From Sphingomonadaceae bacterium (GTDB lineage: Bacteria > Pseudomonadota > Alphaproteobacteria > Sphingomonadales > Sphingomonadaceae): DNA of 45,639 nt. The notes under the pieces are model-generated. The model was not told the DNA's origin. It worked only from the letters and a program-made list of their open reading frames with translations, and searched no databases. The stretch spans positions 1 through 45,639 of the forward strand of contig CANEVG010000002.1 in assembly GCA_947442095.1 (NCBI GenBank). The letters are read 5' to 3'. Every line of letters starts with the position of its first letter. Position 1 is the first letter of the stretch. Position numbers and translations under genes: made by a program. Shown piece after piece: positions 5,059 through 11,583 of this stretch.

Positions 5059-6365
5059 AAGGTACGGTCTATCGCGTGGATTGCCACGCCGACAAGCCCG
5101 CCAACGAGCGTGCCATTAATGCGGATGAACTGCAGATCGCGCCCGACAGCGCCTTCAATCCGATCGGTGACGGTCTGCGCATCCCAGCGGCGCACGGTTT
5201 CGGACACCAATCGCACGATGTTCTCGCCATAGCGCGTGGCAACACCCACCAGAGTCCGCCGGGAGAATCGGTTGACCAGCACCTGCAGCCGCCCATCCTG
5301 CTGCAGGGCGCGACCCAGCTCGGCAAGCGATTCGCCGATCTGGCCATTAGGATCGCCACTGCCGGATTGATCTCTGCCGGATTGATCTCTGCCGGATTCA
5401 CCATGGCCACGAACGGTGCGCAGCAACTGCGCGCGGCCCCGCTCCCACAGGCCATCGAGCCACGCCGCAAAAGCCGGGTTGGCAAGGACTTCACGTTTCA
5501 TGGCCTCGACCCGCGCGTGCATGTCCGCATCGTGCACCAGCGCGTGGGCAAGCGCTTCGATGCCCTCCTCGATCTTGCGGCGCAGCGGATGGTCCTCGAT
5601 GACCACGGTTTCGGCGAGCAGCTTGTACAGTCCTTCGAGGATACCGGTCGCGAGCCGTTCATCGAGCCCGGTCCAGCGCATCAGCGTGTTCGCCTTGTCG
5701 TGGATCATCGTCCGGAGGAGATCCTCGTTGGCCTCGATCGCTTCAGCGGCTCGGCGGATCAGGCTTTCGATCAGCGGCATGTGCCGCCCTTCGGCAATCA
5801 TCGCCGTCAGCAGATTGCCCAGCAGCGGCGCGAGCGCCAGCCGCTCGATCCTGGTGCGAAGTGCGGACTTGACCAGCCCGCCGAGCTTCTCCTGATCGAG
5901 CGATTCCAGCACATCGGCGAGCAGGCTTGCAGCCCCGCCGCTGAGGCGGTTTGCACCGCCGCGGGGATTGGCGAGATACTGCCCCGCAGCTTGGGCCACG
6001 TTGAGCCCCTTGAGCCGCCGCGCGACGACCTGCGGCGTGAGAAAATTGCTTTTGAGGAAAGCCGCCATCGTATCGGCGATACGGTCCTTGTTTTCTGGAA
6101 TGATGGCGGTGTGAGGGATCGGCAAACCCAACGGGCGGCGAAACAGCGCCGTGACCGCAAACCAGTCCGCCAGCCCGCCGACCATGGCCGCCTCGGCAAA
6201 CGCCCGCAGAAAACCCCAGGCGGTATCGATGGACTCCAGGTGCCGAGCTGCAAGGAACAGCGCTGCCATAAGCAGCAGCAGGACTGTGGCAAACAGCCGC
6301 ATCCGAAAAGCCGGATCGACCAGGCCTCCGGGCGGCGGAGTAAATGCAGCCCTAGGTGCGCTCAC
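5055..6365 (-). CDS. DUF445 domain membrane protein
   Basis: 'EAAMVGGLADWFAVTALFRRPLGLPIPHTAIIPENKDRIADTMAAFLKSNFLTPQVV' and C-terminal 'IRINGTLVGGLVGVAIHAI' characteristic of DUF445; GTG start. Confidence 0.87.
   Translation of the reverse strand: MSAPRAAFTPPPGGLVDPAFRMRLFATVLLLLMAALFLAARHLESIDTAWGFLRAFAEAAMVGGLADWFAVTALFRRPLGLPIPHTAIIPENKDRIADTMAAFLKSNFLTPQVVARRLKGLNVAQAAGQYLANPRGGANRLSGGAASLLADVLESLDQEKLGGLVKSALRTRIERLALAPLLGNLLTAMIAEGRHMPLIESLIRRAAEAIEANEDLLRTMIHDKANTLMRWTGLDERLATGILEGLYKLLAETVVIEDHPLRRKIEEGIEALAHALVHDADMHARVEAMKREVLANPAFAAWLDGLWERGRAQLLRTVRGHGESGRDQSGRDQSGSGDPNGQIGESLAELGRALQQDGRLQVLVNRFSRRTLVGVATRYGENIVRLVSETVRRWDAQTVTDRIEGAVGRDLQFIRINGTLVGGLVGVAIHAIDRTL
5361..5398. 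repeat. 15-bp tandem repeat inside the DUF445 gene
   Basis: GCCGGATTGATCTCT at 5361-5375 and 5376-5390 then GCCGGATT; encodes SGRDQ SGRDQ SG on the minus strand. Confidence 0.9.
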
Positions 6366-9300
6366 TCTGCCGGATAAGCCTCGTCTGCTGCGCGCCTGTC
6401 ACGGGCGGCTTCACGCGGATCGTAAGACAGGAGTCGGCGCCCGATCCACGGACCGACCCGTTTTTCGAGCCCGTCCGCCAAGCTGAATCCTGCAGGCACG
6501 AGCAGCAGCGTCAGCAAGGTGGAAAGCGCCAGTCCGCCGATCACGACAATGCCCATCGGGGCACGCCAGCCACCATCGCCACCAATCGACACGGAGGTCG
6601 GCACCATGCCGGCGATCATCGCCACCGTAGTCATGACAATAGGCTGCGCACGCTTGTGCCCGGCTTCGGTGATGGCTGTCAGCTTATCCACGCCGCGCGC
6701 CATTTCCTCGATTGCGAAATCGATCAGCAGAATGGAATTCTTGGCAACGATCCCGAACAGCATCAGCACGCCGATGAACACTGGCAGCGAAAGGGGCTGT
6801 CCGGCCACCACCAGCAGGAGCAGCCCGCCCAACGGGGCGAGGAACAGCGAACCCATGTTGACCAGCGGCGAGATAAAGCGCCGATAGAGCAGCACAAGTA
6901 CCGAGAACACCAGCAACACGCCGGCGGCAAGCGCGACCATGAAGTTGAACAGCATTTCCGCCTGCCAGCGATCCTCGCCAGCGGCGGCGTTGGAAACCCC
7001 CCGAGGCAGGTTTTTCATGATTGGCAGGTTCTTGATTGCATTGTCGGCCGTGCCTTTGACCACACCTTCCGGCAGATCAGCACCCACGAACACCCGGCGG
7101 TTCTGGTTGTAGCGCTGAATGCTGGTCGGTCCTGAACCAAAGCTGATCGTGGCCACACGCGAAAGCGGAACCGAGCCGCCGGTAATCGTGGGTACTGGCA
7201 GGTTCTCAAGCGTGGAGAGATCACGACGCGAGGCCACCGGCAGCTTTACCCGGATCGGGATCTGACGATCAGACAGCGAAAACTTGGCGCTATTCTGGTC
7301 GATCTCGCCTTGTGTGGCAATGCGGATCACCTGGCTGAGTTCCTGCGTTGTTACACCCAGCGAAGCGGCGAGATCGAGATGCGGCGTGATGATGATCTCC
7401 GGACGGCGCAAATCTGCACTGATCCGCGGGGCCGAGACTTCCTTGAGTTGGCTCATCTGCTCGACCAGCGTCTGCGCCGTCTTCTGCAGCAGTTCAGGAT
7501 CGGAGCCGGAAAGCATCACGCTGATGGGCCGCCCCGATCCGCCGCCGGGCCCTCCGCCATTCATCTGCATAAAGCTGACACGTGCATCGGCGACCTTCTG
7601 CAACCGCGGTGCCAGTGCACGCTCAAACTCGAGACTCGTGCGTTCACGGTTCTTCTTGAGTTCCAGGAAGACCCGGCCACTACCCTCGTTGATCCGTTCA
7701 AGCGCAACGTCGATCTCGGGCTCATCCTTCACGAGCGCGAGCACTTCATCGACTTTGCGCTCGGTCTGTTCGATGGTCGTACCGGGCACCATTTCAATTG
7801 TGATGCGGCTGAAATCGCCATCGGTATCGGGAAAGAACTGCGTGGGGATCATAACGAAGAGCACGGCTGTCAGCCCGAGAGCTCCCAGACCGACGCCCAT
7901 CATCCATAAGCGGTGATCGCGCAGCCGTGCGCGGAGCCAGCGGCGGGGATACTGGGCACGATAGCCGGTCACTCCGGCGGTATCGAGTGACCATGTCAGC
8001 ACTTTCATATAGCGCTGTATCCATGGCCCGTTGCCGTGCTCTTCCTCGCCATGCGCGCGCAGAAAATAGGCCGCGATCATCGGGGTGATCATGCGCGCCA
8101 CCAGCAGGGAGAACAACACCGCGATCACCACCGTGAGGCCGAAGTTCTTGAAGAACTGGCCCGAGACCCCTGGCATGAGCGCGACGGGCAGAAACACCGC
8201 CACGATCGAGAATGTGGTTGCCACGACTGCAAGGCCAATCTCGTCCGCTGCATCGATTGCCGCCTGATAGGCCGATTTGCCCATACGCATGTGGCGTACG
8301 ATGTTCTCGATCTCCACGATCGCATCGTCGACAAGCACGCCCGCCACCAACCCCAGCGCCAGCAGCGACAGGGTGTTGAGCGTGAAACCGATCAGGCTCA
8401 TCAGCCAGAACGTGGGAATTGAAGAGAGCGGGATCGCAATGGCCGAAACGATCGTCGCGCGCCAATCGCGCAAGAAGAAGAACACCACGATCACGGCCAA
8501 TACAGCGCCTTCGACCATCGCCGACATCGAGGATTTGTACTGATCCTTGGTGTAGCCGACGCTGGAGAACAGCTGGGTGAAGTGCACCTTGCCGCCTTGC
8601 TCCTGCTCAATCTTGGCCAATTCCTTGACGGTATCGTCGAACACGCTGACGTCGGATTCGCCTCGGGCGCGGGCAATGCTGAACGTGACCACCGGCTTGC
8701 CGTTGTTCTTGGCGATCGAGGTGATCTCGCTGAAGCCGTCCCGCACATCCGCCACATCGGAGAGGCGGATGGTGCGCCCGCCCGCGATACCGATTTCGGT
8801 GCGCGACAGATCATAGGCGCTGGCCGCATTGCCCAACACGCGAACCGCCTGGCGTGATCCGGCCACTTCAGCGCGGCCGCCTGCGGCATTGAGATTGACC
8901 TGACGCAGCGCAGCATTGATCTGCGTGGCTGTGACACCTTGCGCTTTCATCCGCATCGGATCGAGCGTGACCGCGATCTCACGGTTCACGCCGCCATTGC
9001 GCTCCACTTCAGCCATGCCCGGAACCGACAGCAGCCGCTTGCGCACCAGATCGTCGATGAACCACGAGAGTTGCTCGATCGTCATGTCATCGGCCGACAC
9101 CGCAAAATAAGCGATGGCGTCAGACGATGTCTGCGCCTTGATCACCTGCGGCTCGAGAATGCCTTCAGGCAGATCGCCGCGCACCTGATCGACCGCGTTC
9201 TTCACTTCGTTCACAGCGGCGTTGATATCGGTGCCGATGGTGAACTGGACCATCGTCTGGCTGGAGCCTTCGGTGGCCGTCGAACTTAGCGTATCGACGC

Positions 9301-9535
9301 CGGCAATCGTGCGCACGGCGGATTCGATGCGCTGGGTGATCTGGTTTTCGATCTCAGTCGGCGCCGCACCCGGCTGGGCGATCGTGACGATCACCATCGG
9401 GAATTCGATATCGGGCTGATCCTGCACCTTCATGCCGAGGAAGGCGACGATCCCGGCCAGCGTCAGGCCAAGGAACATGACGATCGGCACGACCGGGTTG
9501 CGGATCGACCAGGCCGAAATGTTGCGGAAGTTCAT
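6362..9535 (-). CDS. Efflux RND transporter permease (HAE-1/AcrB-like)
   Basis: ORF 6362..9649; natural start ATG at 9535 ([19 protein letters not shown]). RND motifs '[18 protein letters not shown]'-type region, '[14 protein letters not shown]', long permease of about 1057 aa. Confidence 0.92.
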
Positions 9536-9551: not shown

Positions 9552-10778
9552 TCATGCGCCGGGGCGCGGCATGGCGGCAGATGGCTTGACCACCACGGGC
9601 CGGACCGGATCACCGGGGTTGAGGAAGCCGCCGGCGCGCATGACGACACGCTCGCTTCCGGAAAGGCCCTCGATCACCACAATACCCTGCGCGGTCACCT
9701 CACCGGTCTTGACGGCGCGGCGTTCCACCTTGTTGTTGCCGCCCACCACATAGACAAATGCGCCCTTCTGATCGGACAGGATAGCGGATTCAGGCAGGAG
9801 CGGCGCCGATACCGTACCGCTGCGGATCTGGGCGCTGGCGAAGCCGCCGGGGCGCAGCGCGGCGTTATAGGCCAGAGCGATGCGGGCAACACCTTCACGG
9901 GTCTGCGTGTCAATCGTCGGCGAAAGCTGCCAGATCTGGCCAGTGAACGGCTGGCTCATGCCCACGGGCATGACGTCGGCAGATTGGCCCACTGTCAGGC
10001 GCGCCAGATCGTTTTCGGCGAGGCGGGCCTGCATCTCGAACTCGCCATCTTTGGCAATGCGGAACAATACACCGCTGCCCGGGCTGACAATCTGCCCGGG
10101 CTCAACGCCGCGCGTCAGCACCAGGCCGGCAGCGGGTGCAATGATGTTGAGACGTGCATTGCTAGCCTGAAGCTGGCCAAGCGCCGCTGCAGCAACACGG
10201 ACCTGCGCCACCGCAGCATCGCGCGTTGCCGCAAGCCGGTCCACGTCAGCCTTGGAAATGAAACCGCGTTCGACCAGCTTTAGCGCCCGATCAAGGTTCG
10301 CCTGCGCGATCCGCGCATTGGCGCGCTGCACTTCGATATTGGCAGCCTGGCCTGCAATTTGCTCCACCTGAACCGAACGATCGACCACCGCCAGAACCTG
10401 CCCGGCCCGTACCCAGTCACCGGCATCGACCAGCACGCGTTCGACCTGACCACCTTCGCCGGCAACGCCGACCGGCATTTCGCGGCGCGCCGCGATAGTT
10501 CCGCTGGCGGTGATCGTGCCCGTCACGCTGGTGCGACCCGGGGTGATGACACTGACCGACTGGGACTGCCCGCCCTTGCCTGCACCGGCACTCGGGACAG
10601 CGGGCGCGCGGTGCATGAGGTACCACGCAAGGCCAAGGGCCAGCACGATCAGAACTGCAACAAGAATGACCCTTACCCGGCTATCGCCGGGCAATGACGA
10701 AGGACCGAAGCCATCGTGATCGATAGCCGGTTCCGGAGCGGACTGAAGACCGGGTTTGATCGTCGATTCATAATTCAT
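9552..10778 (-). CDS. Efflux RND transporter periplasmic adaptor (MFP/HlyD family)
   Basis: ORF 9552..10853; probable start 10778 (MNYESTIKPG). Single TM, lipoyl-like 'VLVDAGDWVRAGQVLAVVD', 'IIAPAAGLVLTRGVEPGQIVSPG'; immediately upstream of RND. Confidence 0.9.
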   Translation of the reverse strand: MNYESTIKPGLQSAPEPAIDHDGFGPSSLPGDSRVRVILVAVLIVLALGLAWYLMHRAPAVPSAGAGKGGQSQSVSVITPGRTSVTGTITASGTIAARREMPVGVAGEGGQVERVLVDAGDWVRAGQVLAVVDRSVQVEQIAGQAANIEVQRANARIAQANLDRALKLVERGFISKADVDRLAATRDAAVAQVRVAAAALGQLQASNARLNIIAPAAGLVLTRGVEPGQIVSPGSGVLFRIAKDGEFEMQARLAENDLARLTVGQSADVMPVGMSQPFTGQIWQLSPTIDTQTREGVARIALAYNAALRPGGFASAQIRSGTVSAPLLPESAILSDQKGAFVYVVGGNNKVERRAVKTGEVTAQGIVVIEGLSGSERVVMRAGGFLNPGDPVRPVVVKPSAAMPRPGA

Positions 10779-10861
10779 GTCGTTCACGTGCCTTCGTCCC
10801 GGTCGGACCACCTTAACGCCGCAGGCAAGGAAATACCCTGCGTTTGCGCTCACGTTCGCCC

Positions 10862-10887
10862 AAGTGTATTACAGGTGTATATCACTT
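10862..10887. promoter_or_regulatory. Candidate repressor operator (interrupted inverted repeat)
   Basis: AAGTG-TAT-TACA-GG-TGTA-TAT-CACTT: 9 of 12 positions per half are self-complementary around a central GG; overlaps the predicted spacer and -10. Confidence 0.5.
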
Positions 10888-10894
10888 ATCGCAA
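10866..10894 (-). promoter_or_regulatory. Predicted sigma70-like promoter of the MFP-RND operon
   Basis: Minus strand reads TTGCGA-(17 nt)-TAATAC; -35 at 10894..10889, -10 at 10871..10866, about 88 bp upstream of the predicted MFP start. Confidence 0.5.
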
Positions 10895-11111
10895 GCGCGG
10901 GCTCTTTAGCATAGGCCCGTTCCGCGTCGGTCTTAACCGTCCATCCGACGAGGCGCAATTATGCCTCGACCAAGCGGATGTTTACTCTGGACGACCGTTG
11001 CTGCGATGCAACCGAATTCGATCTGGTGAAGGCGCCTCCTCGTGCAGGGCCGGGCGACCCGGGCTTGGCTTCGAGGCCGGGGCACGTGCGGATCAGTAAA
11101 TCGCGAACCAC

Positions 11112-11191: not shown

Positions 11192-11491
11192 TCAGTATTT
11201 GAGCTGGCGCTCGTACAGATCGCGGTAGTGCTGAATGCGCGTGACCCGAAGACCTTGCATGCCGGAACGATCCACAGCCCGCTGCCAGGACGCGAATTCC
11301 TCGAGCGTGAGGTTGTAACGCTGGCACACCTCATCGATCGTTAGCAGACCACCGTTAACCGCAGCCACCACTTCGGCCTTGCGGCGCACCACCCAGCGGG
11401 TTGTGGACGGCGGCGGAAGGCTATCAATGGACAGCGGCTCACCAAGAGGGCCAATAACTTGCGACGGCTTGATTTTCTGGTTCTCAATCAT
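11192..11491 (-). CDS. sciP: SciP-like CtrA inhibitor (DUF1153)
   Basis: ORF 11192..11566 with internal ATG at 11491: 'TTRWVVRRKAEVVAAVNGGLLTIDEVCQRYNLTLEEFASWQRAVDRSGMQGLRVTRIQHYRD' matches my memory of Caulobacter SciP/DUF1153. Confidence 0.85.
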   Translation of the reverse strand: MIENQKIKPSQVIGPLGEPLSIDSLPPPSTTRWVVRRKAEVVAAVNGGLLTIDEVCQRYNLTLEEFASWQRAVDRSGMQGLRVTRIQHYRDLYERQLKY

Positions 11492-11583
11492 GGCAATTCT
11501 CGTCTGGTCGGCGCCGCGCAGCGGCGTTCGGGGCTGGCCTTTCAATGCCCCGCTCGCCGTTTCCATTCGCTGAAGAGGCGGGG

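Follow-up and report, generated by a model that had tools for sequence, protein, structure and literature searches.

Which protein recognises the inverted repeat that stands before the efflux operon at this locus? In the window, meaning the whole stretch of 45,639 nucleotides that was analysed, the repeat lies between sciP and an operon encoding the periplasmic adaptor and permease of an RND pump, and no TetR gene is found next to that operon. Here we argue that a GntR repressor of the YtrA subfamily, the product of one unlinked gene, uses the dyad as its operator, a reading to which we assign a probability of about 0.86. The argument draws on the following features, the last of which lies outside the window.

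10862..10887, no strand: predicted operator dyad AGTG-N16-CACT, a YtrA-type GntR site (pattern counts and weight matrix)
10889..10894, minus strand: -35 element TTGCGA (TTGC kept at a constant distance in relatives)
10866..10871, minus strand: -10 element TAATAC, within an operator half-site (sequence read-out and conservation)
9552..10787, minus strand: RND periplasmic adaptor gene (PF16576/PF13437; TIGR01730 RND_mfp), starting at GTG 10787 or ATG 10778
6362..9535, minus strand: AcrB-type RND permease gene, next in the adaptor operon (PF00873 ACR_tran)
11192..11566, minus strand: sciP, CtrA inhibitor (PF06627; NF051866 SciP)
contig C214:3536-3907: ytrA, 124 aa, PF00392 only

As the upstream neighbour of the efflux operon, sciP marks a conserved intergenic region; it is not proposed as part of the circuit.

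The dyad and the promoter beneath it

The dyad, AAGTGTATTACAGGTGTATATCACTT, spans positions 10862-10887. On the minus strand, which reads GCGCTTGCGATAAGTGATATACACCTGTAATACACTTGGGCG, TTGCGA (10894-10889) is followed after a 17-nt spacer by TAATAC (10871-10866), and these positions place the dyad over both the spacer and the -10 element. The preliminary description had proposed exactly this sigma70-like promoter and this overlap, and the coordinates bear it out. The promoter call is supported by relatives: in the consensus of 29 genus sites, GCTTGC.g..gGTGattTA...atGTAATACAcct, the -35 TTGC again stands at a 17-nt spacing, and the upstream regions of 58 orthologs yield the motif rGTG-N3-TA-N6-TAA-Y-ACA with TTGC at a constant distance.

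The conserved core of the relatives' sites is GTG-N3-TA-N6-TA-N3-CAC, that is, a 24-bp AGTG-N16-CACT repeat whose half-site spacing is kept across the genus. In the dyad as originally lettered, the inner TACA/TGTA letters are conserved only in part, and the two TAT triplets are mutually non-complementary. A genome scan, suggested at the outset as a check, finds the original pattern once in 3.4 Mb at up to three mismatches; at the same threshold about half of the matches in the genus fall in the same sciP/efflux intergenic region. A relaxed 10-base core gave 15 matches in the window's own genome vs 47 in the reversed control, mostly chance matches, and the 24-nt consensus was therefore used instead. 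At this Novosphingobium-like efflux operon the inverted repeat is real and conserved, a site of a predicted repressor type.

Farther upstream of the efflux promoter lies a second conserved block (10929-10975, minus strand, GTCGAGnnnnAATTGCnACTnGTCG), found in clade genomes with and without ytrA. It includes TTGCnA-17-TATTGC in several relatives and could serve as a distal promoter or else as a further operator.

The ytrA gene and its own promoter

Five GntR genes are present in the genome, only one of them YtrA-sized. Its product consists of a GntR domain (residues 17-79) and about 45 further residues, the build of a short protein of the GntR family whose C-terminal domain is small. Among solved structures, those nearest to it belong to short GntR regulators, including 2ek5 and 6sbs. 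The other four genes encode longer proteins of about 240-290 aa, and a FadR- or HutC-type GntR was set aside on this ground. The named records that match the YtrA protein best come from Novosphingobium, Sphingomonadaceae and Erythrobacter, and on this basis the genome is assigned to a Novosphingobium-like sphingomonad. Operons that join ytrA to ABC transporter genes are typical of the subfamily without defining it. In the C214 neighbourhood no ABC transporter gene shares an operon with ytrA, which is flanked by a POT-like transporter gene and an ihfB-like gene. The earlier suggestion that the regulator is encoded elsewhere agrees with the unlinked position of this sole YtrA-type gene.

Directly before the ATG of this gene stands CGCTGTATTATGGCACTGCATCACCC. 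Among the genome's matches to the strict consensus it ranks second, and apart from the window site nothing but the ytrA promoter comes within one mismatch of that consensus. The site is weak, scoring 11.4 bits, and one of its halves reads CTG. A related motif precedes the ATG in 30/30 ytrA orthologs of the genus; it is perfect in G033, strong in G046 and degenerate in many. By its sequence, then, the predicted regulator has a site at its own promoter, as autoregulation would imply.

Matches with two mismatches were rejected as targets, being no commoner in the genome than in the reversed control; those on contigs C72 and C389 apparently lie inside coding frames. The strict pattern yields no target in the window's genome beyond the pump and ytrA.

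Site and regulator across relatives, and the rival readings

Among 58 genomes of the genus, the site is present in 27 of the 30 that carry ytrA and in 1 of the 28 that do not. The exceptions are G046, whose YtrA has diverged, G028 and G010, whose printed sequences show degenerate sites, and G042. With a weight matrix trained on the genus sites, the family set yields the site in 71/87 genomes with ytrA and 1/10 without it. Over all 155 family genomes the counts are 99/117 and 2/38; the two genomes with a site in which ytrA was not found are G042, which is 73% complete, and G171, which is split into 380 contigs. No recognisable site precedes the adaptor in 18 of the 117 ytrA-bearing genomes. Family-set genomes of this kind include G155, G245, G178 and G247.

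Raw p-values for this co-occurrence are weakened by shared ancestry. On the adaptor trees, ytrA requires 9 changes in the genus and 13 in genus plus family. Independent supported pairs number 3 concordant and 0 discordant in the genus, and 5-6 concordant and 0 discordant in most pairings of genus plus family; the direction is consistent and the tree-aware sign test marginal (median p 0.06). One sister pair amounts to a natural experiment at the level of sequence. G033 and G048 both have GCGCTTGCGACC, after which the operator follows in G033 and none follows in G048, which lacks ytrA as well as the site, though its -35 stretch remains.

In relatives, regulator and pump can also be neighbours. 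G202 and G198 belong to two more distant genera. In both, a few genes separate ytrA from an OMF-adaptor-RND operon, and strong sites are found at the ytrA promoter as well as at that of the operon. An ABC ATPase gene directly follows ytrA in each, joined in G198 by a likely permease gene. In Tsuneonella suprasediminis, 1.6 kb separates ytrA from an adaptor gene downstream of it, and a 19-bit site precedes ytrA. The adjacent regulator that the preliminary description missed at the efflux operon thus exists in relatives, where it is YtrA.

The strict consensus has 30 matches in 60 genus genomes vs 1 for the reversed control. Some lie outside the pump and ytrA promoters: between genes resembling lepB and pgi in G008 and likewise in G143, both Novosphingobium-like (L300, L012, site 1501), the G143 match coming from the search with the dyad pattern at up to three mismatches; between UrcA-like and metallophosphoesterase-like genes in G043, G056 and G041 (L310, L311, L315), with only the metallophosphoesterase-like side clear in L315; and once upstream of a DUF2807-like lipoprotein gene in G020 (L304, site 1501), the closest relative sampled. 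These gene names come from translations read by eye rather than from a family search.

The assignment to YtrA is based on the AGTG-N16-CACT spacing, which equals the published YtrA type, on the motif at the ytrA promoter and on the way in which the presence of the site tracks that of ytrA. The same observations bear on the other explanations. The preliminary description held the dyad to be a TetR/AcrR-type repressor site. Efflux operons are often under TetR control and the genome holds 18 TetR genes, but the motif occurs at 0/18 of their loci, the best of which scores 5.7 bits vs 30.7 bits for the window operator (with the window site left out of training). No contig with a TetR match carries a consensus match at up to two mismatches, and it is ytrA that the site follows across genomes. 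A TetR/AcrR protein is thus an improbable binder, and the geometry once taken for its signature is, in its spacing, that of a YtrA-type GntR site.

There is likewise only a slim chance that the operator belongs to some other, undetected regulator that shares the distribution of YtrA, with YtrA itself a passenger. Co-occurrence alone does not name the binder, and the genome is 87% complete, so that a further regulator could be missing from it. This explanation has to contend with the YtrA-typical spacing and with the copy of the motif at ytrA's own promoter, throughout the genus orthologs and in G198 and G202. Very improbable indeed is a chance dyad, or a conserved promoter without an operator. 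The TAATAC part of the motif is the -10 element itself, but the spacer half of the dyad, GTG-N3-TA on the left, is conserved to the same degree as the -10; the single match to the original pattern in the window (up to three mismatches) compares with a mean of 0.01 expected from dinucleotide shuffles; and G048, without ytrA, has lost the site and kept the -35 stretch.

The proposed circuit and known systems

Under the YtrA reading, a dimer would contact the two outer half-sites, GTG and CAC, which lie some two helical turns from each other, across the spacer and the -10 element. Bound there, it would block sigma70 RNA polymerase from the adaptor-RND operon. YtrA would also repress itself through the weaker site that immediately precedes the ytrA start codon, and repression is assumed to be relieved by envelope or antibiotic stress. 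Sequence establishes the site, its place on the promoter, its conservation, its co-occurrence with ytrA and the motif at the ytrA promoter; binding, repression and inducer are inferred.

We see about even odds for a broader scheme, in which a YtrA-type GntR heads a small envelope regulon in Sphingomonadaceae (with Erythrobacteraceae). The regulon would comprise the RND pump, the regulator itself and, in some lineages, lepB, UrcA and the DUF2807-like lipoprotein gene. YtrA may have started out next to a cluster of ABC and RND genes and later become unlinked, keeping the pump as its main target in a role that is usually TetR's. The analysis gives a conserved sphingomonad RND pump a likely regulator and offers for direct testing a 124-aa protein paired with a 26-bp site, where the usual TetR guess would probably have pointed to the wrong gene. 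With the terms tried, the literature search found no paper on a YtrA-RND pair.

TetR/AcrR operators of RND pumps resemble the proposed arrangement, being palindromes over an efflux promoter that work alike; the protein family is different, and the TetR loci of the window's genome are without the motif. The YtrA of Sulfolobus acidocaldarius (PDB 6sbs), of the same subfamily, represses itself and one membrane-protein locus according to the account in PMC6746942, which gives it a core motif of 14 bp, in contrast to the 24 bp of the window site.

In Bacillus subtilis, YtrA is a GntR repressor of its own ytrGABCDEF operon and one further locus, with induction by cell-wall antibiotics (PMC7828314, PMC12772383). 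Repression of itself and a further locus is also what is proposed for the window's YtrA, whose target would instead be an RND pump and whose gene does not stand beside ABC genes; in G198 and G202, ytrA does adjoin an ABC ATPase gene.

Bacterial YtrA motifs are described in PMC6746942 as typically 24 bp with distant half-sites. The same source cites GGTG-N16-CACC as the operator of a YtrA-like GntR protein of Xanthomonas citri (Zhou et al., 2017). Although X. citri belongs to another bacterial class, its operator and the window site are alike 24 bp long and palindromic, with N16 between widely separated GTG/CAC half-sites.
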